Shown here one piece after another: positions 2,342 through 27,663 of a stretch of DNA of 64,000 nucleotides; position 1 is the stretch's first letter; every line of letters starts with the position of its first letter. The notes under the pieces were generated by a model. The model searched no databases and was not told where the DNA came from. It saw only the letters and a program-made list of their open reading frames with translations. Origin of the DNA: Rubripirellula lacrimiformis (GTDB lineage Bacteria; Planctomycetota; Planctomycetia; Pirellulales; Pirellulaceae). The stretch spans positions 4,216,001 through 4,280,000 of the forward strand of contig NZ_CP036525.1 of the NCBI RefSeq assembly GCF_007741535.1. The letters run 5' to 3'. Made by a program: the position numbers and the translations under genes.

Positions 2342-3697
2342 CTAGGGTGCGGTTGGAGATGTCCCAGCCGAATCGAGGTCACGAAAAACGTTCTCTAGCA
2401 GCGATCGCATCTCGGTTCGGCGTGCGTTGTCTTCGCCCGAGGTGAACGGGTATTGTTCCAGTGGATCCTCGGCCATGTGGATCAGCCGTCCATTGTTGTA
2501 GAGTTTCCAATCTTGATTGCGGACCCATTTAAGGCCCGAACTTTCACCATCAGGTTCGACGCCACCCGGTTTCGGCAAAACCGCCTCCTCGCAGTACGTG
2601 AACGTTCGCGGTGACGTTCCGGTGCCACGCAGTCGATCTGCAAAACTAACACCATCTAGCTTCAGACCATCGGGGATGGGCTGCCCAGCTAGGTCCATGA
2701 ACGTTGGCAGAAAGTCGCTGAAGTCCACCAAGTCGTCCACGACCTGGCCTGGACGGATCGTGCCGGGCCAATTGGCGATCATCGGAACGTTGGTTCCCGC
2801 ATCGGTCAGCTGCTTCTTTCCACCCGGTACGTCCAGACCATTGCGACGCGACACCACAGGCACTCTGCTCAATTCCTGTCCATCGGCACGGATGATGATT
2901 TCTGGTGGCGTTCCATTGTCTGCTAGAAATATCACCAGTGTCTTGTCACGCAATTTCAATGCGTTCAGCGCGGCGATCAAGCGGCCGACGTTCCGATCTG
3001 TTTCAGCGACCATCTCGTCGTAGTTGTCGTAGCGATCGAAGGGGCCATGGGGGACAGGTGGCGTTAAGTCATCCGTCACTTCGTGGGCAACTGCCATCGA
3101 GTAGTAGGCCAAGAATGGCCGATCTCGATTGTCCTTCATGAAATCGATCACGCTGCGGACATAGAGATCGGGGCCGTAGAAACCCAACGTGTCGGCACGC
3201 ACCTGGCCATTCTGATGGATCATTGGTTCGTAATATCGGGGACCTTCGTGCCAACCGAAGAGATCCCAATGGTCGAATCCCATCCGCCGCGGATGGAAAG
3301 GATCTTCGCCCAACAAGCACAGTTGCCACTTGCCGGCGATCGCCGTTCGATAACCGGCCGTCTTCAGTAGATTCGAAAACGTGTACGGTTCGGCCTGTTT
3401 CGGATAGTCTCCCCAACTCACTGGACCGTGACGAAACGGGTACTTCCCCGACATCAACGTGATCCGTGATGGATGACAAACCGGCATGCTGAACGCCTGA
3501 TTGAACTTCATGCCTGTCCGGGCCAGTTCGTTCAGGTGAGGCGTTCGGTAAGACTGACCTCCGTAACATTCCAGCACCTCCTGTCCAATGTCGTCAGCAA
3601 AGATGAACAGAATGTTCGGTTGCCTTGGATCGCTCGCGCTGCTGACGCCGCCGCAACCCAAAGCGAACAATAGGATTGTTTTCAATGCAGTTTTCAT
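2342..3697 (-). CDS. Secreted type I sulfatase
   Basis: A 451-residue arylsulfatase-family enzyme that hydrolyses sulfate esters, in planctomycetes usually on algal polysaccharides. The signal peptide is [14 protein letters not shown]...SSA. Metal-binding aspartates follow in FADDIG (about residues 33-38). The formylglycine signature CHPSR begins at Cys74, and GKYPFRHG follows as in the family. Further landmarks are HEV and DNGTPPE. An in-frame ATG at 3706 (MGRMKTALK) and another at 3727 are possible; I prefer 3697 because the signal peptide begins there, though no clear Shine-Dalgarno decides it. It is transcribed leftward, away from the repeat array. The exact polysaccharide substrate cannot be read from sequence. 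Confidence 0.93.
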
Positions 3698-3750
3698 GCG
3701 GCCCATTCTAGCCGAAAGCAAAGCCACCAGGCATTCGAATGTGATTTAGA

Positions 3751-4498
3751 CGTAAGCGGCCGGGAATGCATTGCAGTAGGCCGGACCAAGGAGCGCAGCG
3801 ACGCCGCTCCGGCAATCCCACACAACAGACAGCACAAAATCATGCCGGAGCGGCGCTTCGCTTGGTCCGGCCTACACGGTCGGCCTTCGTGAGCCGTGAT
3901 CGCGTAAGCGGCCGGGATTCTATTGCAGTAGGCCGGACCCAGGAGCGCAGCGACGCCGCTCCGGCAATCCCACACAACAGACAGCACAAAAGAATGCCGG
4001 AGCGGCGCTTCGCTTGGTCCGGCCTACACGGTCGGCCTTCGTGAGCCGTGATCGCGTAAGCGGCCGGGATTCTATTGCAGTAGGCCGGACCCAGGAGCGC
4101 AGCGACGCCGCTCCGGCAATCCCACACAACGGACAGCACAAAATCATGCCGGAGCGGCGCTTCGCTTGGTCCGGCCTACACGGTCGGCCTACACGGTCGG
4201 CCTTCGTGAGCCGCGATCGCGTGAGCGGCCGGGAATGCATTGCAGTAGGCCGGACCAAGGAGCGCAGCGACGCCGCTCCGGCAATCCCACACAACAGACA
4301 GCACAAAAGAATGCCGGAGCGGCGCTTCGCTTGGTCCGGCCTACACGGTCGGCCTTCGTGAGCCGCGATCGCGTGAGCGGCCGGGATTCTATTTCAGTAG
4401 GCCGGACCAAGGAGCGCAGCGACGCTGCTCCGGCAATCCCACACAAAAGACAGCACAAAATCATGCCGGAGCGGCGCTTCGCTTGGTCCGGCCTACGC
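3751..4498. repeat. Tandem array of five ~152-bp palindromic units
   Basis: Units begin at 3751, 3903, 4055, 4220 and 4372; the last is cut at about 4498. The period is 152 bp except for the third unit, which is 165 bp because GGCCTACACGGTC is duplicated inside it. Each unit holds a long imperfect inverted repeat, for example left arm 3776-3814 and right arm 3843-3875 around an AT-richer 28-nt loop, followed by a spacer around CGTGAGCCG(T/C)GATCGCG. Copies differ at a few bases (AATGCA versus TTCTAT, CAACAG versus CAACGG), so the array is old enough to have diverged slightly. Open frames cross the array on both strands only because the repeat lacks stops; I do not call them genes. Confidence 0.95.
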
Positions 4499-4614
4499 TA
4501 TTGGACTGATGCGGGACTTGCGATTGGATTGCTGATGGTCGATCATTCTGTTCGGCTCTTCTTTCCCTTTTGACGCCGACCGTCACTCAATCCCCAATCC
4601 ATCGACAACTCCTT

Positions 4615-5850
4615 ATGCACCGAAATCATCCTGTGATCAGCCAACGAGTCCGCCGATCGTTTGCCCCGATGTTATTGAGTATCGCGATGCCGTTTGTTGC
4701 TGGTCTATCGGCAGCAAGGGCCCAGGACGACGTGCCGACACAGCTTTGGGATGCCGACGCACCGCTGCTATCAGCCAATCAAATTCCGCTCCTTATCAGT
4801 GTAGATTTCCAGGTCATCAAACGGTGGGACAAGGCAGCGGATGGATATACCTTTTTGCATGGGGTCAGCTTGGCGTGGCATGACGACAAACTTTACGCAT
4901 CGTTCGGACACAACCAAGGTTCGGAGAACACAGTGTCCGAGGAGGCTCATTACCGGGTTAGCGAAGATGACGGACAGACGTGGGGACCGCTACAGAAAAT
5001 CGACACAGGAGACGAAGAAGATCTTGCAGTCAGCCATGGCGTATTCCTGTCCAACCAAGGAACACTGTGGGCGTTTCAGGGATCGTACTACGGGAAGATG
5101 AAGGACGTTCACACTCGCGCCTATCGACTGGATCCGAAGACCAACCAGTGGCAAAAGCTTGGTGTAATCTTAGAGGGTGGTTTCTGGCCCATGAACCAAC
5201 CTGTCCGGATGGACGATGGGAACTGGATCATGTCAGGCTTCGCCGCCGGTCCCTATTCGAGTGACGGTGTCTTTCCCGCTGCGATCGCCATCAGCCACGG
5301 TGACGATTTCACAAAATGGGACCTGAACCACATTCCGGTCGCCGAATCGGTCAAACGGATGTGGGGCGAATCGGCGATCTTTGTGGATGGGAAGAACGTT
5401 CACAACATCGCCAGATTCGGTGGCAGTGCCGTCGCACTGTTGTCGGTCAGCAACGACTTCGGCCGCACATGGACTCCATCAACGCCCAGCAATCTTCCGA
5501 TGACAACGTCGAAACCGGCCGCCGGGGTCCTGAGCAACTCTCAGCGATACCTGGTATGCACGAACGCAAAGGACAACGGAGGCAAGCGAAACCCACTGAC
5601 GATTGCCGTGTCCAAGCCCGGTGAAGATCAGTTCAGCAGGATCTATGTTATCCGCCGATCGCTCTCTTCACGGCGGATCGGGGAATCAGGTAAAAACGTC
5701 AGCCTGTCCTACCCCTGCGCTATCGAACACGAAGGGAAACTCTATGTCGGCTACTCCAACAACGGGGGTCGAGGCGGCAACCTGAACAGCGCCGAGTTGG
5801 CTGTGATCCCGATCGAGTCACTTTCGGTTCCAAGTTTCCCTGCGAAGTGA
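4615..5850 (+). CDS. Secreted sialidase-like (BNR/Asp-box) protein
   Basis: This 411-residue protein has a signal peptide (basic MHRNHPVISQRVRR, then a hydrophobic stretch ending AARAQ) and a body resembling the six-bladed sialidase/neuraminidase propeller. Two Asp-box motifs are clear: SEDDGQTW near residue 115 and SNDFGRTW near residue 278. A late GYSNN(G) segment lies where sialidases carry a catalytic Tyr. Exo-sialidase activity is not assured, because many planctomycete paralogues are catalytically unassigned. A TTG at 4570 could extend the frame, but the ATG at 4615 begins the signal peptide directly. The gene lies just downstream of the repeat array and next to a sulfatase, consistent with glycan scavenging. 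Confidence 0.82.
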   Translation: MHRNHPVISQRVRRSFAPMLLSIAMPFVAGLSAARAQDDVPTQLWDADAPLLSANQIPLLISVDFQVIKRWDKAADGYTFLHGVSLAWHDDKLYASFGHNQGSENTVSEEAHYRVSEDDGQTWGPLQKIDTGDEEDLAVSHGVFLSNQGTLWAFQGSYYGKMKDVHTRAYRLDPKTNQWQKLGVILEGGFWPMNQPVRMDDGNWIMSGFAAGPYSSDGVFPAAIAISHGDDFTKWDLNHIPVAESVKRMWGESAIFVDGKNVHNIARFGGSAVALLSVSNDFGRTWTPSTPSNLPMTTSKPAAGVLSNSQRYLVCTNAKDNGGKRNPLTIAVSKPGEDQFSRIYVIRRSLSSRRIGESGKNVSLSYPCAIEHEGKLYVGYSNNGGRGGNLNSAELAVIPIESLSVPSFPAK

Positions 5851-18244: not shown

Positions 18245-19525
18245 CTAGAAGTCGCTGAGGTTGTTGGCCTGGACTGGCAAGATTCGATAAAGCCCGTCGG
18301 TGAAGATCTGCTGGGCCCAGTTGTTGAATCGCGTGATCGGCTTATCGGGCACGATGATCACGTCGCCATCACGTAGCCAAATCTCATCGGCAGGTGTGGG
18401 CCGTTTGCCGTAGATCGCACCTTGCAGGTCCAGCACGGTCGAGATCAATCGCCAATCTTCGGCACGACGGAAGATCACGACCTGGCGCATGTTGCCGGCT
18501 GGCAGATGTCCACCCGCCGACGCGATCGCGCTGAGCACGGTCGTGGGAGCTTCCAATTGAACGCGTCCCGGCTGTCCAACTTGCCCCAGCACGTGAACAA
18601 AGTGCGGTGCTTGTTGCACCAAGATTGGTTCGGTGTCGATTCCAACGACGATCTCGCCGTACCGCAGATTGATCTCTCGCTTCAACTGGTTCAACGAGAA
18701 ACCTTGGACGCAGATCTCGCCAATCCCTGGCAACCGAATCTTGCCATCGGGCATGACGGTCACCGTGATGGATTGTTGGTTGAATCCGCTTTGTCCACCG
18801 ACCGCGTTGCGAATATCTTCGGCCAATGTGTTTGTCTTGACGGGGGTAACATCGATCGCCGGTTGCTTCACATACCGCGAGTATTCCTCGTCCAGAATTT
18901 CGCGAAGCTGAGTGACGGTTAAGCCAGCCGCGTGAACCTGCCCCAACATCCGAACGGTGATGGTTCCATCGGGTTGGACCAACAGACCATTTTCGAGCGT
19001 GCCGCGTGTCAGGTCGTCGTCGGTGCCGGATTCAATCAGCACTTCGTCGCCCGGGGTCAGCCGATAGGCTCCCACCTTCTGACGACGAGTGATCAGATAC
19101 AGCACTTGAATTTGATCGCCGGGCCGTAGCCGATATTCGCCTAGATGGGCTAGCCGTGCTGGGCCTGCGTAGCCACCGGGACCGTAGGCACCGAATGGCA
19201 TCGGGCGAATGTCTTTCCATCTGGCTTCGGCACCACAATTGTCTTTGCAATCGACTCCGATCATGCACTTTGGGCATCCGCCTGCACATGGATATCCCCC
19301 CGGCTCGACATTGCATCCGCAATCTTGGCTTGGTGCGGTTTCGTTCGGCAATGCACCGGCAATCGGTGATACTGCGACCGAGTCATTCGCCAGCGTCTGT
19401 GCCGACGCATTCGGGTTTGAATCGAAAGACGCTAACACGATCAGCGCGATCGCGCACATGCCAGACTTCCGAAAGACGGAGGTTGCCAGTGGTGCGAGGC
19501 GATGGAGAAGTGTTGTCAAATGCAT
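18245..19525 (-). CDS. Polysaccharide export protein (Poly_export/SLBB), Cys-rich N-terminus
   Basis: A 426-residue Wza-type outer-membrane export or scaffold protein. It has a signal peptide (VLASFDSNPNASAQ), then a Cys-rich segment at about residues 65-100 with eight cysteines, including CPKC. The Poly_export domain follows (YRLRPGDQIQVLYL, then YRLTPGDEVLIES and LLVQPDGTITVRMLGQVHAAG). SLBB motifs come after (RLPGIGEICVQGFSL; VHVLGQVGQPGRVQLEAPTTV; IVPDKPI). These proteins carry exopolysaccharide across the outer membrane; no polymerase or flippase genes are near. It lies 81 bp downstream of the 437-residue secreted protein at 19607 on the same strand, probably as one operon. Confidence 0.9.
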   Translation of the reverse strand: MHLTTLLHRLAPLATSVFRKSGMCAIALIVLASFDSNPNASAQTLANDSVAVSPIAGALPNETAPSQDCGCNVEPGGYPCAGGCPKCMIGVDCKDNCGAEARWKDIRPMPFGAYGPGGYAGPARLAHLGEYRLRPGDQIQVLYLITRRQKVGAYRLTPGDEVLIESGTDDDLTRGTLENGLLVQPDGTITVRMLGQVHAAGLTVTQLREILDEEYSRYVKQPAIDVTPVKTNTLAEDIRNAVGGQSGFNQQSITVTVMPDGKIRLPGIGEICVQGFSLNQLKREINLRYGEIVVGIDTEPILVQQAPHFVHVLGQVGQPGRVQLEAPTTVLSAIASAGGHLPAGNMRQVVIFRRAEDWRLISTVLDLQGAIYGKRPTPADEIWLRDGDVIIVPDKPITRFNNWAQQIFTDGLYRILPVQANNLSDF

Positions 19526-19606
19526 CGAGACTTACCGAATCAGAATGGAATCGACCGACAGGAGCCGGACAGGGTGATCAGCGATCGTTGGTGGCCAACG
19601 ACGTGA

Positions 19607-20920
19607 CTACCAAGGCTTCTTAAACTTTCCAAAGAACCTGCGTACGACTCCGGGTTGTTTCGGTTCTTCGCCATCGACGATCACCTGGCCGCTGGCACCA
19701 TCACCCTCGGTGATCCGTGTGCTGGCCAACGATGCTGGCACACCTTCCATTGTCGGTTTACGGATAGCATTGGACGGTGCTGCTGCGACCGACGCTGGCG
19801 AGGGGTTGCCTTCGACAATCGCGCCGCCCGACATCACCGACTTGGATACCGACGCGAATTCGCTTGGCGACAGTTCCACAATCTCGGGTGTAAAGACTTG
19901 CGGTTGCTTGGCGGGTTCGGATTGCTGCAGTTTCGCAACCAATTGGGACGCACCCGTGGTGTCGCCGGTGCGCTGCATGACCGCGACCAAGGCGTGAGCG
20001 GTTTGTGGAGTGAACTCCATCGACAAAGAGTGCTGCAATGCCCAGCAGGCTTCGTCGTGCAGTCCCACGTCCGCTAGGTGCATGCCCAACCGAGAAGCCA
20101 AGCTTGCGTTGTTGGGTTGTCCCTGCAAAGCAGCACGCCGCATGCAGATTGCCGTTTCGCTCGGCAAAGTACTGGCGTCAGCCCGGCCCAAGTAAACCGC
20201 GGCCAACAAATCGAGTGCTTGCGCGGCTTCGATGCGTTCACCCGCAATGGTGGCTAGCTGAACTCGAGCGAAATCCAGGTATCGATCTGTCGCTTCGTTC
20301 GCCGTCACGGTGGACGCCGACGCGGGATCGATCAGTTTGGTTTGGTGGCTGCGTGCCATCCGGGCAATCGCGGCCGCGTCAACGGCACCGTAGACACCGG
20401 CGAAGTCGCGAGACTCCGTGATGGCGTGCTTTGCCATTTCGATGCGAGTGCGAGCGTTTGGCCCAGCAGACGGTTGATTAGGATCGGCGACGTTTGCCAG
20501 ATCGATCGATTCGCCGATGTGACGAATGGCATCCCACGCGGTGTTTTCAGCCGACATCCACGCCTTGGAATCGTATTCCTGAGTCGCTTGGGCAAGCAAC
20601 CGACGAGCAATTTCGAGGGACGCACCGGCGGTCGATGAACGCAGGTACCGCGGCGATGCGGCCACACTTGGCGCAGTGTTGATGGCCGGGCGGCGTGGTT
20701 GGGATACCGCATTTGGCTCGGTGCTGTACTGCGAGGTTGCAGCCGGTGGAGTGGCAGCCGGTGGGGCTGATGTTCCAGCGACGGTTGGCATCCGCGTCGG
20801 GCGGACGGACGGGCGATCTGCCATTGCTGACGACGCTCCCATCGCCGCAATCAACATTGCCGAAAGACATCGGCGGCTTGTGCTGACTTTGCAGTTCGGT
20901 TTTGGGGACGCAATCTTCAT
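19607..20920 (-). CDS. Secreted helical-repeat (TPR-like) hypothetical protein
   Basis: A 437-residue protein. I start at 20920 (MKIASPKPNCK) because a typical signal peptide follows (LSAMLIAAMGASSAMA); an upstream in-frame ATG at 20971 only adds a basic stretch. After a Pro/Thr/Ala-rich linker the body is alpha-helical, with repeated Ala/Leu patterns (AAVYLGRADAST, CMRRAALQGQPNNASLASRLGMHLADVG) suggesting tetratricopeptide-like repeats at about residues 250-340. The C-terminus ends in a basic tail, RRFFGKFKKPW. It precedes the polysaccharide-export gene, so a periplasmic scaffold role in export is plausible but inferred. Confidence 0.7.
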   Translation of the reverse strand: MKIASPKPNCKVSTSRRCLSAMLIAAMGASSAMADRPSVRPTRMPTVAGTSAPPAATPPAATSQYSTEPNAVSQPRRPAINTAPSVAASPRYLRSSTAGASLEIARRLLAQATQEYDSKAWMSAENTAWDAIRHIGESIDLANVADPNQPSAGPNARTRIEMAKHAITESRDFAGVYGAVDAAAIARMARSHQTKLIDPASASTVTANEATDRYLDFARVQLATIAGERIEAAQALDLLAAVYLGRADASTLPSETAICMRRAALQGQPNNASLASRLGMHLADVGLHDEACWALQHSLSMEFTPQTAHALVAVMQRTGDTTGASQLVAKLQQSEPAKQPQVFTPEIVELSPSEFASVSKSVMSGGAIVEGNPSPASVAAAPSNAIRKPTMEGVPASLASTRITEGDGASGQVIVDGEEPKQPGVVRRFFGKFKKPW

Positions 20921-21396
20921 GAGGACGTATCCGAATGGGTTAGCGGCGGCACGAAAACGGTGTGCCCACATCCCTTACAGATCGGACGAGTCGTCCAGAG
21001 ATCACTGCTAAACTTAACCGCGAACATCGTTGCATCCCAGCGCTGCCGATCGATCCCTCAGAATCGTCACAGATTGATGCTAGAGGCCGGTCCAAATGCA
21101 TTTTCAAATCGAATCTGGTCAGGCGGTTCACGGTCGCCGGTGCCGGTTAGGAAGCCTGGGCAGATCGGCCGGGTGCAAGTGGCGTCGGTTCAGACGCGTC
21201 GAAGCGATCTGTTGGCGTTGAAGAATACAGCCAGTCGGAAACTGGCCGGGAGAAGTTCACACGGCAACATTCCAAGGCACCGGTCGGGAAACGACTTTCA
21301 CGACGATTCCGCGACAGCGTTCTGCTTGTGAAACAAACCTGAGTGGGAAACAGCGGATTCGAACGCATCGAATAGAGAGGCGTGATCGCGACTCTA

Positions 21397-21723: not shown

Positions 21724-22845
21724 TTAGGCGGGCGATGGCCGGCCATAGAAGAAGCCCTGGGCCAGATCGAAGCCTAGTTCGCGGCACACATCCGCTTCAT
21801 CCGGTGTTTCGATTCCCTCGGCGAGCGCCTGGATGTCCAGATCACGCACCATTTTGACCAACGTAGCAAGCATGCCGCGACGTTGGTCATTGGCGCGATC
21901 GATGCCGCGAACCAACGAGATGTCGAACTTGACAAAGTGGGGACGTGCTTCGATCAGTTCAGCCAATCGGGCCTGCCCGGATCCAAAGTCGTCATAGGCC
22001 AGTCGAATGTTCAGGTCGTTCATCGCCGAACTGAGCGACTGCATCAATGCCGGGTTGGTCACAGCAGATTCGTGGATTTCCAGCACCAAGTCGGTGTTTC
22101 CCGTCATGTCGCGGACCTTGACCAGCGAGTCAATCAGTCCTTTTCCGTCTTCCATTTCGCGTGGATGCGTGTTGACGAACAGGGTGGGACGATCGGGCAG
22201 ATCGCGTCCGACGCGGATCCCTTCCCAGCGAAGCAAACGGCTCAGTTCGACTTCCAGGTTCAATTGCTCGGCCGCTTGAAACATCGCTCCGACCGATTCG
22301 AGTCCAAAGACGCTGCCGCGACCAAGAATCTCGAATCCAATCGACTGGCTCGTTTTGATGTCGATGATCGATTGAAAGTGGGGACGGACCAAACGTTCGC
22401 TCATCAAGCGATCAAACTGCACCAGTGCCAGCGCCTGGTCGCACACGTTTTCGGCATAGGTGCCGTTGGTCATCCCGGTGGGAGATTGTCGCCGAACTCG
22501 AAAGGGAGCTTCGGCAAAGTGGATCAGGTCTTCTTCGCTGATACGGAACGTCTGATCCTCTTCGATCCGTTTCCCGTTGATATAGGTGCCATTGGTGCTA
22601 CCCATATCTTTCAGCATCAGCGCCCCATTTTCGACCCAGAGCGCAGCGTGCTGACCGCTGACCGTTCGATAATGCAGTTTCAACGACACGCCGGATTTGC
22701 GGCCCACAATGTGCGGGCTTCCATCGACGGGGATATGCAACACAGCTTCACCCGGTTTCGTTGGTCCGGACAGGAACCAAACGTCTTCCGCGACAATGGA
22801 ACTACGGCGCAATCGTTCGATCGTGGAGTGGTCAACCGAGGGCAT
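21724..22845 (-). CDS. FHA domain-EAL domain protein (predicted c-di-GMP phosphodiesterase)
   Basis: A 373-residue cytosolic fusion. Residues about 35-115 are a forkhead-associated domain, recognisable from IVGRKSG, SGQHAAL and STNGTYINGKRI, which binds phosphothreonine peptides. Residues about 145-373 are an EAL domain that retains the catalytic set: EILGR at Glu172, FVNTHP, VLEIHES, DDFGSG, FVKFD, AEGIET and LAQGFF. It is therefore expected to hydrolyse c-di-GMP. The start at 22845 (MPSVDHST) is chosen; an ATG at 22896 is also in frame. The gene is divergent from the AAA+/kinase-tubulin pair, and an FHA domain next to a Ser/Thr kinase is a common functional link. Confidence 0.93.
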   Translation of the reverse strand: MPSVDHSTIERLRRSSIVAEDVWFLSGPTKPGEAVLHIPVDGSPHIVGRKSGVSLKLHYRTVSGQHAALWVENGALMLKDMGSTNGTYINGKRIEEDQTFRISEEDLIHFAEAPFRVRRQSPTGMTNGTYAENVCDQALALVQFDRLMSERLVRPHFQSIIDIKTSQSIGFEILGRGSVFGLESVGAMFQAAEQLNLEVELSRLLRWEGIRVGRDLPDRPTLFVNTHPREMEDGKGLIDSLVKVRDMTGNTDLVLEIHESAVTNPALMQSLSSAMNDLNIRLAYDDFGSGQARLAELIEARPHFVKFDISLVRGIDRANDQRRGMLATLVKMVRDLDIQALAEGIETPDEADVCRELGFDLAQGFFYGRPSPA

Positions 22846-23232
22846 GAAACAGGGTCCAAGTGACAATCTGAGGGGGGCGTTACGGGCGTGGGGCAACTCC
22901 CAATGGTCCTTGGCGGCATTGTCACCGATCGAACCTACTGGATTTCTGGACCACGTCCATCAAAACCTAGCTCAACATTCGCTGCATAGGTTTGTTCACT
23001 GAAAAAGTTCAGACTTATTGCTTCGCCGGAGACCGGAAATGCCGGTAAATGCCACATTCCCTCTACAACGCACCCCCCGCCCATACTGAACATTGGGATC
23101 ATGCGGAAAACTGGATAGAGACGACGTGATGGGCACTGTTTGCGTTGTAGGGTTTATCGAATCGGGAACCGTGCTTGCGTACAACCTGCGCCAACGGCCC
23201 CATCACCTTTCCCTACAATCGCGACAACCGTC
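22846..23232. other. Divergent intergenic region, FHA-EAL / AAA+ ATPase
   Basis: This region of about 390 bp holds the promoters of two divergent genes. TACAAT at 23213-23218, 14 nt before the ATG at 23233, could be a -10 box, but I see no matching -35. TTGTAGGG near 23149 and CCCTACAA near 23211 form a spaced inverted repeat that might be a regulator site. No coding frame is supported. Confidence 0.5.
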
Positions 23233-24558
23233 ATGTCCACTCTTGCGACAGAAACACAATCCTTCGAACCAAGCCTGTTAGGCGGCTTACTATCGAACGA
23301 TACATTCTGGCCCAGTCAGCCGCAGAACACAGACGAAACCGGGCTCAGCGAGTCGTTCATCGAAGCCTTGGTGCTGAAGACGGTGCTGATTGGTGGGACA
23401 GTAAGCGGCAGAGTCATATCCGAACGCACCGGGCTATCGTTTCGAGTGATCGAACCGCTGTTGGATATGCTGCGAACCCGCAAATTGGTATCGCATGTGC
23501 GGCCGGCGGCATTCAATGATTACTACTATTCATTGACCGAAGCTGGACAACAACGCACGCACAAGCACATGGAACAGTGCAGCTACGTCGGACCGGCTCC
23601 GGTTCCGTTGGCGGACTATGTCGTCAGCGTCGAGGCACAGGCCGCTGGCATCGAACCGATTGATCGCGATCAACTGCGCGAAGCTCTTTCCGCGATTTCG
23701 TACCAAGATTCCCTGCTGGACGAGCTTGGCCCCGCGGTCAACAGCAACACCGGGATGTTCCTGTTTGGTCCGCCCGGAAACGGAAAGACCACCATCGCCA
23801 GGTGCCTGACGCAAGTACTAGGACAAGAGATCTGGATTCCTCATGCTGTCCTTGATGACGGGAATCTGATCAAGCTGCAAGATGATGCCTTTCACCGGCC
23901 GGCACCGGTGCCCGAATCCGGCGGAAACATTCTAAAGAATCAAGAATGGGACCGTCGTTGGCTCCGCATCGGGCGTCCAACGGTCGTCGTCGGCGGTGAA
24001 CTGATCATGGACAACCTGGAAGTTCGCCACGACCCTCGTTCGAACGTCTGCGAAGCTCCCCTCCAGATGAAAAGCAATTGTGGATCGTTATTGATCGACG
24101 ACTTCGGAAGACAACGCATTGCACCCGAGGAGCTACTGAACCGGTGGATTGTTCCATTGGAAAACAAGTGCGACTACTTGACGCTACCGACGGGAAAGAA
24201 GATCCAAATCCCGTTCGAACAATTGATCATTTTCTCTACCAACCTTGATCCGGAATCGTTGGTCGACGAAGCGTTCTTGCGGCGTGTGCCGTACAAGATC
24301 TTTGTCGATGATCCAACGGCAGACGAATTCAAGCAGTTGATGACGGAAACGTCGCAAAAGCTTGGTTTTCCCGACACGCCCCAAGCAGCCTCGCACTTGC
24401 TGCGGTTCTATGAAGACAACAAGCGGGCCAAACGCAGATGCCATCCCCGCGACCTGCTGACCCAGGTAGCGAACTTCTGCAAATATCGAAAACTGCCGAT
24501 GGCAATTCGGCCCGAGTACCTAGATCAAGCCTGTCGCAGCTACTTCAGCAACCTGTAA
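23233..24558 (+). CDS. AAA+ ATPase with N-terminal winged-helix-like region
   Basis: A 441-residue soluble ATPase. Residues about 40-110 look like a winged helix (LKTVLIGGTVSGRVISERTG, then LLDMLRTRKLV and YYYSLTEAGQQR). The AAA+ core follows with Walker A GPPGNGKTT (179-187) and a Walker B segment LLIDDFGRQR, then a sensor-1-like IFSTNLDPE and an arginine-rich DEAFLRRVPYKI. I start at 23233 (MSTLATET); an ATG at 23140 would add a Pro/Arg-rich stretch. The kinase-tubulin gene begins 6 nt after its stop, so the two are surely co-transcribed and probably act together. It could remodel or load the tubulin-like partner, or regulate DNA through the winged helix; neither is proven. Confidence 0.88.
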   Translation: MSTLATETQSFEPSLLGGLLSNDTFWPSQPQNTDETGLSESFIEALVLKTVLIGGTVSGRVISERTGLSFRVIEPLLDMLRTRKLVSHVRPAAFNDYYYSLTEAGQQRTHKHMEQCSYVGPAPVPLADYVVSVEAQAAGIEPIDRDQLREALSAISYQDSLLDELGPAVNSNTGMFLFGPPGNGKTTIARCLTQVLGQEIWIPHAVLDDGNLIKLQDDAFHRPAPVPESGGNILKNQEWDRRWLRIGRPTVVVGGELIMDNLEVRHDPRSNVCEAPLQMKSNCGSLLIDDFGRQRIAPEELLNRWIVPLENKCDYLTLPTGKKIQIPFEQLIIFSTNLDPESLVDEAFLRRVPYKIFVDDPTADEFKQLMTETSQKLGFPDTPQAASHLLRFYEDNKRAKRRCHPRDLLTQVANFCKYRKLPMAIRPEYLDQACRSYFSNL

Positions 24559-24564
24559 AACATC

Positions 24565-27500
24565 ATGTCCACGATCTACAAAAATCTGATCATCGCTGGC
24601 TACGAGCCTGTTCCGGGCTACGTGCTGGAAGAGGTGATCGGCCGTGGTGGCTTTGGCGAGGTCTGGCGAACCAGTGCGCCGGGGGGACTGAAAAAGGCGA
24701 TCAAGTTTGTCTTTGGTCACCAAGATCAGTCACGCGCCACTCGCGAACTGCGATCGTTGGAACGAGTCAAGGGAGTCCATCACCCATTCCTGTTGACGCT
24801 AGAACGATTCGAGATCATTGACGATCAATTGCTGATCATCACAGAGCTTGCGGACTGTTCCCTGGAAGATGTGTACAAGCGACATCGCGACAACGGTTCG
24901 TGTGGGATCCCACGTGACCTGCTGTTGTCGCACCTGCACGATACCGCCGACGGGCTGGACTATTTGCACCAGTCCTATCAGCTGCAGCATCTGGATATCA
25001 AACCGGGCAACTTGCTGATCATCGGGGGACACGTCAAGGTCGCCGACTTTGGACTGCTGAAGGACCTACGAGATATTGATTGCAGCGTTGTCGGCGGTCT
25101 AACACCGGTTTACGCACCACCGGAATTGTTCGACGGAAAGCCCAGTCTGCACAGCGACCAATACAGTTTGGCAGTGATGTTCCAAGAACTGCTGACCGGC
25201 ACGCGGCCGTTCAGCGGACGGACGATTGCCCAATTGGCGACTCAGCATGTCCACAGTGCACCGAACCTAGAAACGCTGCCGCCAAGCGATCGTCCAGTTA
25301 TCGCCAAAGCGCTTGAAAAGAATCCGAACCGACGCTTTCCAAGCTGCAAAGCGTTTGTCGAAGCGCTGCGACACCAAGGCGTTCGAGCTCGATTGTCATC
25401 GCGACACAACGTCGATCCCGCCGGGAACGTAGACGCCGATTCAAAAAGCGACGACGCGCCGCTTCCAGTCGAAGACTTGCCCCAGATCAAGACCGGCCCC
25501 GGGGCGGAGTCAGCTACCACGCTCCATCACGCCTTGGTGATCGGGTTGGGCGGTACGGGTGCCGCATGTGTGCGTGAACTTCGGCACCGCATCGCGGACC
25601 TTCACGTGGCAAGCCCACTGCATCTGCATAGCGCGGTGATCGACACCGATTTGGCCACCATCGATGCTGTCCGATTCATCGAAGCATCCGACCGAGTGCC
25701 CCGATGCACCCCGATCTACACGCCGCTGAAAACGGCACATGAATACCGAAGCACGCGAACCGACCGGCTGAAATCGATCTCGCGGCGTTGGATCTACAAC
25801 GTCCCACGCAGTGGTTCCACCGAAGGCATGCGGCCATTGGGGCGGCTTGCGCTCGTGGATCACGGCGAATTGGTCACGAAACAGCTTTCACAATCGATCG
25901 AAGCGTTGGTCGCTGACGCGGGCGATACCAAACCGCGAATCTATGTCGTTGGTTCGCTTGCCGGCGGCACCGGCAGCGGTATGTACATCGACGTCGTCCA
26001 TCTACTTCGCAATCTGCTGGACCAAGCCGGAAAGGAAGAACTGAAGATCCTTTCGCTGCTTTCGTCCGTCCCGATGGCCGTGGACGTTTCGAATCCACTC
26101 GCACTGCACGACACCCAAGCGGCACTGAACGAAATCGAATTCTTCATGCAGGTCGGCAATGGGTACCCAGGCGACAGCGGCGCCGGATTCTCTAGCGTTC
26201 CCGCAGCAAGAACGCCGCTGCGAGATCTGTATGTCGTGGCTTCGTCGCCGACGGATCAGTATTCGTCGCTGCCGATCGAAACGATCACCGAATACCTGTG
26301 GACCGATGCAACGGGCTGCGGCGACTTGTTGGCTACCGCACGAAAGTCGCAACAAGCAGAGAATCAATCGGTTCGTCTTCCATCGCTGCGTTCGGTCGGT
26401 GTGGTTCCGCTGGGCGATCGCCATCGTCTTGAAACGCGCGTCCTGTCGCCCGCGATCGTACGTGAACTGTTGACACGTTGGCTGGGCATTCCGTCCAAGT
26501 CTCGTCAGGCAGCACCGGCGCTGGCCGATCGATTGCAACGACGCATCAATTTGTCCTTGGAACACACGATCGAAACGATCGAAGAACATCTCGATCCAAA
26601 CTCACTCCCGTCACTGAACCTGCGGTCGCTCGATCGTTACATCGCGGATTTGGTCCGAACCGGCGAATGCGACTGGTTGTCTGCCGGATGGCAAAACAAT
26701 CTGTACCGCGAAATTTCGGTTTGCTTGAACGATCGACGCGCAAACATTTCCACTGTTTTCGAGGCCTTGGACCTGCTGGTCAAACGTTCCACCGAGTGGC
26801 AAAACGAAGCCCTGCGTTCCACGCCGACCCACACCGGATCGTCGGAATCGGGCATCGGTCAAAAGTCGTTCATCGATACGGTTGTGATGCGATTGGCAGC
26901 AAGGCAATTCGAACAGCTGACGATCCATTTGAAGTTCTTGGAAGAACGCGTGGAACGATTCGCGGCGATTCTTGCGGTCGCGATCGTCGAAACGAAGAGC
27001 GAAAATGGGGATAAGAACCCTTGGGACACATTGCCCGATGCGGTTCGTGCAACTTTTGATGATGTCGTCACCCGTCTGCACACCGCGACGGTTGGCGAAA
27101 GGCTGGTGCGGCCACTGAACGACCTAGGGGCCAATGTGCATTCGCGTTCGCTGATTTCCGGGTTGACCAAGATGGCGATTCCATTGGTCATTCGCGTGAT
27201 CGAGAAACACAGCAGCGATGTGGCGATCGCACGCGAACAGGGGGGCAGCGAAGAAGATCTATCGACGGCCAGCATTGCCGATGCTTCCCCCGCTTCGATG
27301 ATGAACGCCACGGAACACACGTTCGATTTGGATGTCGTTCAGCAGGCGCGGATGCCTTCGGGACCTGTATCGGTGGACGAGGCGATCCAGGCCGTCAAAC
27401 CGGCGCTGCTGGCGATGGGCGGACGTCAACGCCTGATCCTGATTGTGGGCAGCGAAGTCGAACGCAGTCAGCTGGAGCCGGAACTACGCGCGATCCACAG

Positions 27501-27663
27501 CGGTGCATTGACCGTGGCTGTGCTTCCCAACGCGGAACCCAAATTGATCCACGAGGCACAGGGAATTTCGATGCAGAATATCCTGTCTCGGTTGACGGTT
27601 TTGAATGGCGCCAACGAACAAGTGACCGCTCGCCTGGCAAGCCGCGTCGATGTTGACTTTTAG
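24565..27663 (+). CDS. Ser/Thr protein kinase fused to a tubulin/FtsZ-like domain
   Basis: A 1032-residue soluble protein. Residues about 15-275 are a Hanks-type kinase: P-loop GRGGFGEVW (26-34), Lys47 in KKAIKF, Glu61, catalytic loop HLDIKPGNL (Asp144, Lys146, Asn149), DFG at 161-163 and APPE at 184-187. The kinase thus looks active, although HRD is HLD. After an acidic linker, residues from about 321 resemble the tubulin-like family (Pfam Tubulin_2): ALVIGLGGTGAACVRELRHR at the N-terminal nucleotide-binding strand, VIDTD, and the tubulin signature GSLAGGTGSGMY (GGTGSG at 467-472). Residues about 600-1032 are mostly helical, with an Arg/Leu-rich pattern and no motif I recognise. No membrane segment is seen. 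It sits 6 nt behind the AAA+ gene. The kinase might control assembly of its own tubulin domain. Confidence 0.9.
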   Translation: MSTIYKNLIIAGYEPVPGYVLEEVIGRGGFGEVWRTSAPGGLKKAIKFVFGHQDQSRATRELRSLERVKGVHHPFLLTLERFEIIDDQLLIITELADCSLEDVYKRHRDNGSCGIPRDLLLSHLHDTADGLDYLHQSYQLQHLDIKPGNLLIIGGHVKVADFGLLKDLRDIDCSVVGGLTPVYAPPELFDGKPSLHSDQYSLAVMFQELLTGTRPFSGRTIAQLATQHVHSAPNLETLPPSDRPVIAKALEKNPNRRFPSCKAFVEALRHQGVRARLSSRHNVDPAGNVDADSKSDDAPLPVEDLPQIKTGPGAESATTLHHALVIGLGGTGAACVRELRHRIADLHVASPLHLHSAVIDTDLATIDAVRFIEASDRVPRCTPIYTPLKTAHEYRSTRTDRLKSISRRWIYNVPRSGSTEGMRPLGRLALVDHGELVTKQLSQSIEALVADAGDTKPRIYVVGSLAGGTGSGMYIDVVHLLRNLLDQAGKEELKILSLLSSVPMAVDVSNPLALHDTQAALNEIEFFMQVGNGYPGDSGAGFSSVPAARTPLRDLYVVASSPTDQYSSLPIETITEYLWTDATGCGDLLATARKSQQAENQSVRLPSLRSVGVVPLGDRHRLETRVLSPAIVRELLTRWLGIPSKSRQAAPALADRLQRRINLSLEHTIETIEEHLDPNSLPSLNLRSLDRYIADLVRTGECDWLSAGWQNNLYREISVCLNDRRANISTVFEALDLLVKRSTEWQNEALRSTPTHTGSSESGIGQKSFIDTVVMRLAARQFEQLTIHLKFLEERVERFAAILAVAIVETKSENGDKNPWDTLPDAVRATFDDVVTRLHTATVGERLVRPLNDLGANVHSRSLISGLTKMAIPLVIRVIEKHSSDVAIAREQGGSEEDLSTASIADASPASMMNATEHTFDLDVVQQARMPSGPVSVDEAIQAVKPALLAMGGRQRLILIVGSEVERSQLEPELRAIHSGALTVAVLPNAEPKLIHEAQGISMQNILSRLTVLNGANEQVTARLASRVDVDF

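Follow-up and report, generated by a model that had tools for sequence, protein, structure and literature searches.

The FtsZl1 family of tubulin-like proteins (Tubulin_2, PF13809) was described in 2010 by Makarova and Koonin, who reported an N-terminal kinase in four planctomycete members and stated that the T6-H7 part of the family cannot be identified (PMC2875224). The kinase-FtsZl1 fusion has since been mentioned again (PMC9871819), and a tubulin-like domain is the commonest among those domains exclusive to the cytoplasmic Ser/Thr kinases of planctomycetes (PMC11032199). A reviewer of the 2010 paper pointed to a cyclic di-GMP (c-di-GMP) phosphodiesterase gene (Psta_0487) beside the FtsZl1 gene of Pirellula staleyi, but such neighbours were discounted by the authors on the ground that they occurred in no more than one organism or a few relatives (PMC2875224). 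In this work we analyzed a locus of Rubripirellula lacrimiformis within a window, i.e., the whole stretch of 64,000 nucleotides under study, covering positions 4,216,001-4,280,000 of the single-contig 8.54 Mb genome. The locus encodes a kinase-tubulin fusion (KT), an AAA+ ATPase and a protein composed of an FHA and an EAL domain (FE). KT belongs to the FtsZl1 family with the N-terminal kinase already noted there; in contrast to FtsZl1 as presented in the main text of that paper, FHA-EAL and AAA+ genes recur here across several planctomycete families. As it has been published three times (PMC2875224; PMC9871819; PMC11032199), the fusion, which was also noticed in a first-pass annotation of this DNA, is not a discovery, four cases having been in print since 2010 (PMC2875224). 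What is new is the composition of the unit and its two states; no description of a unit of FHA-EAL, AAA+ and kinase-FtsZl1 genes was found among the best-ranked matches in the open-licence literature, supplements excluded.

On balance we favor the reading that FE, AAA+ and KT are one signalling module which links Ser/Thr phosphorylation to c-di-GMP. Comparative sequence analysis shows the three genes linked, reshuffled and missing together; their membership of the unit is well supported. The FE gene (21724-22896, minus strand) is divergent to the AAA+ gene (23233-24558, plus strand), which encodes 441 amino acids (aa) counted from an ATG within an open reading frame (ORF) that is extendable to a TTG at 23140. 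A gap of 6 nt (24559-24564) separates it from the KT gene (24565-27663, plus strand; 1032 aa). The first-pass annotation had described AAA+ and KT as a two-gene system at 23233-27663; both genes, their coordinates and the 6-nt gap were confirmed by ORF analysis, and the span proved too narrow, as the third gene, FE, was missed. No promoter-like or terminator-like site was found in 22850-23300.

The epidemiology of the unit was addressed by starting from the tubulin part of KT, which matched in 79 of the 198 genomes of the class; a PF13809 search of 119 phylum genomes gave four, and thus under-detects the kinase-fused subfamily relative to the protein query. Named genome contigs were also scanned with the tubulin-domain alignment, so that loci were chosen by this domain and not by their neighbours; 174 loci were confirmed and 80 of them kept, including loci from Rubripirellula, Rhodopirellula, Stieleria, Roseimaritima, Botrimarina, Lacipirellula and many metagenome bins. 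Altogether 146 loci had a tubulin-domain ORF, and 142 of them, with kinase plus tubulin over 780 aa, entered the tree as 136 different proteins. Setting aside one clade of 25 KT proteins discussed below, the other 111 comprised, within the fetched stretch, 81 with both partners, 12 with AAA+ only, 15 with FE only and three with neither. When non-redundant loci of at least 16 kb outside that clade were considered (n = 78), FE was found in 73 and AAA+ in 70 (65 both, five AAA+ only, eight FE only, none with neither); the recurrence of the AAA+ neighbour, on which the first-pass annotation had made its reading depend, was thus present in the large majority. A clustering of all neighbours within about 9 kb of the 146 loci served as background control and gave FE/GGDEF in 102 loci (the two fell into one single-linkage cluster), AAA+ in 97, and the third commonest cluster in just 14. 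Linkage is kept in all of six gene orders, which are distributed clade by clade: FE divergent before AAA+; FE after KT; FE and AAA+ co-oriented with FE first; a GGDEF gene lying between AAA+ and FE; KT-AAA+-FE; and KT on the strand opposite to both FE and AAA+.

These neighbours also bear on a membrane-remodelling system centred on FtsZl1, in which KT would assemble on membranes, its partners would regulate it and c-di-GMP would be incidental. Such a role was proposed from gene context for the whole family in 2010 (PMC2875224), and KT is a member by its PF13809 match; however, the strongly recurrent neighbours are AAA+ and FHA-EAL/GGDEF genes and not the vWA, GTPase and OmpA genes on which that role was based, a comparison drawn from the two top neighbours of the 146 loci, with the clusters present in at most 14 loci only partly identified. 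We consider this explanation unlikely.

The unit is also missing as a whole. A KT match is lacking in both of the other genomes of the genus that we sampled, G227 and G239, which are 99% complete drafts. At locus L143 the gene block reads SLBB-TPR-[FE-AAA-KT]-554 aa-733 aa, versus SLBB-TPR-538/545 aa-737 aa in G227 and G239, so that exactly the unit is absent, and tblastn found no remnant of it in four stretches fetched from these two genomes. Loss is the simpler reading of these sequences, since the window and other genera (L059, L143) have the unit beside the SLBB-TPR pair. In the window this pair, an SLBB gene for polysaccharide export and one of 454 aa which we named "TPR" by eye and which has no Pfam match, adjoins the unit at 18245-20971 (minus strand), likewise in L059 and L143.

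FE shows Pfam matches to EAL (2.7e-35) and FHA (1.3e-16) and is predicted to be a c-di-GMP phosphodiesterase and, by its FHA domain, to read phosphothreonine. It has 390 aa when counted from the TTG, and because homologues at the equivalent place are mostly 365-405 aa long, translation probably begins at Met18 (about 22845). At the seven positions which we take to be catalytic for EAL (E, N, E, DD, K, E, Q), the window protein, which was aligned to solved EAL phosphodiesterases of the PDB, retains 7/7 and by this measure is of the intact kind. Scoring of 103 EAL rows separated two states of the c-di-GMP part. Where no GGDEF gene was detected at the locus, 72 of 76 rows were 7/7 (one of these, L188_14380, is a second EAL protein without FHA residues), while all 27 rows from loci that do have a linked GGDEF gene retained only 0-4 of the seven positions. 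The GGDEF signature is itself absent in 27 of 28 GGDEF rows, the exception being a second GGDEF gene at L163, so that at these loci both EAL and GGDEF look catalytically dead; the one linked GGDEF gene scanned as an example showed GGDEF and CBS domains and a sub-threshold REC match. The FHA residues, scored against GR, SxxH and (S/T)xN as the presumed phosphothreonine-binding set, were kept across both states, with GR in 100/103, SxxH in 100/103 and STN or SSN in 101/103 rows; the exceptional rows are two cut by the contig start and one second EAL protein. Since the FHA residues are kept in both states and the EAL residues are not, the part played by FHA appears to be constant and that of the enzyme to be optional.

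Known kinase-FHA switches, such as GarA/OdhI and the PpkA-Fha pair of type VI secretion, link a Ser/Thr kinase to an FHA protein. Like them, the present unit pairs such a kinase with an FHA protein having a conserved Thr outside the FHA core; unlike in them, FHA is here combined with a c-di-GMP EAL domain, and the kinase is fused to a tubulin-like one. The conserved residue, Thr146 of FE (numbered from the TTG; codon at 22459-22461, minus strand), lies in an otherwise variable FHA-EAL linker and is Thr in 70/76 rows without a detected GGDEF gene (three gaps) and in 16/27 rows with one. This conservation makes it a candidate kinase site, its phosphorylation being a prediction. A paralogous FHA-EAL gene was found directly downstream of a Ser/Thr kinase gene in three of eight regions fetched around FHA-EAL paralogues, in seven of which the script recovered FHA-EAL. 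One of these is in the same genome at 3.99 Mb, separate from the window unit, where FHA-EAL follows a gene with Pkinase and DUF5939 (L228 5232-10249); the others are L233 and L234, the kinase gene of the latter also carrying a cyclase match. Phosphosite motifs were searched in KT and FE against 1000 composition shuffles each. The form TQx[FWMLVIH] occurred in the disordered insert of 15/50 type-a and AAA-only KT sequences (shuffle mean 2.0, max 10), in 5/10 type-b tails (mean 0.3, max 2) and in 9/27 FE linkers from loci with GGDEF (mean 1.8, max 7), and Txx[VLI] in 10/10 type-b tails (mean 4.6, max 9) and 24/27 of the same FE linkers (mean 12.8, max 21). It should be noted that the sequences are related, which inflates the excess over the shuffles, and that these recurrent motifs, of which the TQx sites in the insert belong to some Pirellulaceae KT proteins, are therefore a lead only.

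The kinase domain of KT (residues 19-259; 24619-25341, plus strand) matches Pkinase at 4.1e-31 and its catalytic residues are intact, the Lys, HxD, Asn and DFG residues of Hanks-type kinases all being present. The motifs given for KT by the first-pass annotation (GRGGFGEVW, K47, HLDIKPGNL, DFG, APPE, ALVIGLGGTGAA and GGTGSG at 467-472) are all at the positions assigned to them. They are not chance occurrences, given their conservation across 67 KT homologues, in which K47, H142, D144, K146, N149, D161 and G467 are at 100%. The tubulin-like domain (about residues 321-645; 25525-26499, plus strand) matches PF13809 at 2.3e-23 over residues 324-506, with 83.5 bits far above the curated cut-off of 27; its assignment to the tubulin superfamily, for which the first-pass annotation had looked to a profile match at residues 320-720, is upheld, the PF00091 profile of FtsZ/tubulin scoring only 0.073 (13.8 bits, cut-off 33). 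The nucleotide-binding half is kept across 55 sequences, with conserved loops T1 (GG), T2 (DTD), T3 (RPLGRLA) and T4 (GGTGSG; residues 467-472, 25963-25980, plus strand), in which G329, R423 and G467 are found in 55/55, P424 in 54/55, D360 in 52/55 and G472 in 51/55. We take the T3 loop to be comparable to the NPxxGRxAA loop of FtsZ. A comparison by hhalign with one Escherichia coli FtsZ sequence aligned T1-T2 only (probability 8.3%, E 0.0041), and alignment A1 of the tubulin domain, searched against PDB sequences, gave no match at E 0.1. The best 50 rows of a fold search of KT in a viral library (40 named kinases, nine nameless, one named otherwise) were uninformative on the tubulin part. In the AlphaFold2 model of KT (mean predicted local distance difference test score, pLDDT, 84.4; predicted template modelling score, pTM, 0.58) the placement of the domains is not reliable; residues 321-645 form a mostly confident alternating alpha/beta core. 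This is followed by a helical, coiled-coil-like region by secondary structure (about residues 643-891; 26491-27237, plus strand), a disordered hypervariable insert recognised by pLDDT below 50 and by alignment (residues 894-929; 27244-27351, plus strand) and a C-terminal alpha/beta part, which ends in the motif RVDVDF (27643-27660, plus strand; family pattern RxD[IV]xW). In alignment A2 the columns R1027, D1029 and W1032 are conserved in at least 90% of 55 sequences. The C-terminal RxD[IV]xW is kept in most KT proteins though the preceding 300 residues are strongly divergent: an RxD pattern, mostly RxD[IV]xW, was found near the extreme C-terminus in 132/142 rows, the partnerless clade included, a count in which a few are probably chance (such as L062, L090 and L205) and four of the ten misses run off the contig.

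A tubulin-superfamily domain in an FtsZ-less phylum raises the question of a replacement cell-division filament. The remark of the first-pass annotation that planctomycetes generally lack FtsZ holds for this genome, where no PF00091 match was found at E 0.1 while the control matched in 13 of 14 genomes. However, only 79/198 class genomes match, the gene is absent from an otherwise intact site in both of the other sampled genomes of the genus, and the T7 loop is not recognisable. FtsZ replacement was rejected on this distribution; a role of KT in division is unlikely, and as an account of the unit we find the filament hardly credible. The data rather suggest a relative of tubulin working as a signalling switch.

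The AAA+ protein carries a Walker A motif (GPPGNGKTT, residues 179-187; 23767-23793, plus strand) with G179, P181, G182, N183, G184 and K185 invariant in 49 sequences, and a Walker B motif (LLIDDFGR, residues 286-293; 24088-24111, plus strand) in which L286, L287, D289, D290, F291, G292 and R293 are likewise invariant. Residues 40-115 (23350-23577, plus strand) are winged-helix-like, as the first-pass annotation had also suggested, judging from how helices and strands succeed one another in the AlphaFold2 model (pLDDT 87.2, pTM 0.81) and a weak Pfam HTH_45 match (0.076). Every Pfam match of the protein falls below the curated cut-offs. The best 60 of 209 PDB sequence matches included spastin, p97 and Vps4 and covered only short stretches, and the best 50 rows of a Foldseek search were led by Pyrococcus furiosus Q8U0N8 (8p49), then Lon, RuvB, spastin and others, with query template modelling scores below 0.5. 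Kinship with spastin was discarded, as the top PDB match (9.7e-8) extends only over profile residues 139-205 and the fold search returned many AAA+ classes; the protein has no clear named clade. The query matched in 173/198 class genomes because unlinked paralogues also exist. One of these, in the same genome at 6.57 Mb (L099 9942-12874), adjoins an HDOD-domain gene, and a 288-aa ORF lies at the equivalent place in both same-genus genomes. There was no AAA+ match in the phage collection.

Outside planctomycetes, 75 plasmid records encode an AAA+ homologue, at 32-37% identity over more than 90% of the length in the rows listed. In all four annotated proteobacterial records opened out of these 75, the gene lies inside a Tad/Flp pilus operon. 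The operons are on plasmids of Rhizobium, Burkholderia and Paraburkholderia (L219 9968-11272, L221 8899-10299, L222 6318-7502, L223 8992-10296), and the AAA+ family may be an overlooked Tad component. An alternative is therefore that the unit controls pili or adhesion: a Tad/Flp pilus, or a secretion machine derived from one, would be the target of AAA+, and KT and FE would only set the timing, to which the seven TadE matches in the genome of R. lacrimiformis would also fit. Unlike the plasmid operons, the planctomycete loci examined have no pilus or other Tad genes near AAA+ save CpaF-like ATPases in six loci, and all seven TadE genes are far from the window. We regard pilus control as improbable, though worth keeping in view.

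The first-pass annotation had further offered a defence-type system. Conflict systems centred on GTPases and containing tubulins likewise place a tubulin-family protein and an NTPase partner in one neighbourhood, and kinases are known in described conflict systems as well (PMC7159879). Unlike those systems, KT, AAA+ and FE have no GAP1, vWA or HSP70 Pfam match at E 1, and the window AAA+ protein is under the bpMoxR cut-off (15.7 versus 27). PADLOC does match the kinase domain; however, its matches (the best 25 of 29 for KT, seven for AAA+) fall on that domain or on short P-loop stretches, and the tubulin part alone has none. The NCBIfam scores for MAD6 (70.2 bits, cut-off 460) and IteA (31.8, cut-off 510) fall well short of the equivalog cut-offs, neither of the two strongly recurrent neighbours is an effector gene, and inheritance is clade-wise. 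On these part-protein matches and low scores, an anti-phage or biological-conflict system was rejected, and we consider it very unlikely.

Returning to the signalling module, the residues of the kinase, the FHA domain, the window-type EAL and the tubulin nucleotide-binding half are kept in the aligned sequences, and the following chain of events may be proposed. GTP-dependent assembly of the tubulin-like domain would bring kinase domains together, and this clustering would switch on phosphorylation of KT and/or FE, with Thr146 as candidate; FHA would then read the phosphothreonine and so place or switch EAL, lowering c-di-GMP locally, and the AAA+ ATPase would dismantle or remodel the KT assembly. 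At loci with a GGDEF gene the dead-enzyme module would sense or scaffold and not hydrolyse. The direction from kinase to FHA to EAL is inferred from domain chemistry and from the constancy of FHA, while the assembly step and the remodelling role of AAA+ are guesses. Surface and sessile-life behaviour is the usual business of c-di-GMP and would be the likely output; attachment or pili are a lead as to physiology. The detailed version, in which the fusion is a scaffold and not a filament, its GTP-dependent assembly sets the phosphorylation read by FHA-EAL and hence c-di-GMP, and a second state with dead EAL and GGDEF senses or scaffolds, is held more tentatively than the module itself, and we would not yet bet on it.

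Several observations weigh against this reading in whole or in part. The T7 catalytic loop is not recognisable, there being no conserved acidic residue after putative H7 (placed at 621-640 in the AlphaFold2 model) in 55 sequences; the only positions between 530 and 950 which are mostly D/E/N, 537 (87%) and 576 (80%), come before H7 and are not among the nearly invariant ones. This agrees with the 2010 statement on T6-H7 (PMC2875224) and makes cycling polymers of KT doubtful. The 25-protein KT clade, made up of families f79 and f82 with two loci of f80, has neither partner nearby, and at five loci of Rhodopirellula and near kin (L140, L142, L144, L150 and L159) AAA+ and KT are present while FE is absent from the fetched flanks; FE is thus dispensable for at least some KT proteins. 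Three short contigs (L199, L204 and L206) have neither partner, L199 being 15.8 kb long with 3.3 kb upstream of KT and thus just under the 16 kb cut. At L187, L195, L201 and L210, where no GGDEF gene was detected, EAL retains 0-2 of 7 positions, two of these rows being cut by the contig start. A FastTree phylogeny of AAA+ groups the 96 KT-linked rows without exception into a single clade with support 99, which also takes in one mis-extracted ORF (L015, branch 6.42; the program warned of long branches) that is to be ignored; the linkage thus arose once and was kept, and was not gained repeatedly. Nor was a Tad cluster found beside planctomycete AAA+ at the loci examined. As to the phosphosite lead, the motif search of inserts gave 0/8 type-b, 0/8 type-c, 0/23 type-II and 1/26 of the partnerless type, that of tails 0/14 type-a, and the window KT insert has no TQx form. 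FE linkers without GGDEF, those of the intact type, were at or below chance, with TQx in 1/63 (mean 2.9) and Txx[VLI] in 20/63, below the shuffled mean of 26.4.

Elsewhere in the window, a BrkB-like protein (Pfam) is encoded downstream of KT and is outside the unit, and a tandem array with a period of 152 bp (4.8 copies, 91% match) lies at 3751-4496 between the ORFs at 2342-3727 and 4570-5850.

FtsZl1 proteins are widespread, and the passages of the FtsZl1 literature available to us contain no tested function for them. The partner set found here has predictable chemistry (a kinase, a phosphothreonine reader, a c-di-GMP enzyme and an AAA+ ATPase), which makes the role of a divergent tubulin testable, and the existence of intact and dead natural versions, together with natural deletions inside one genus, would aid such testing. 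If true, the proposal would connect the Ser/Thr kinase signalling of planctomycetes with c-di-GMP directly at the level of genes.

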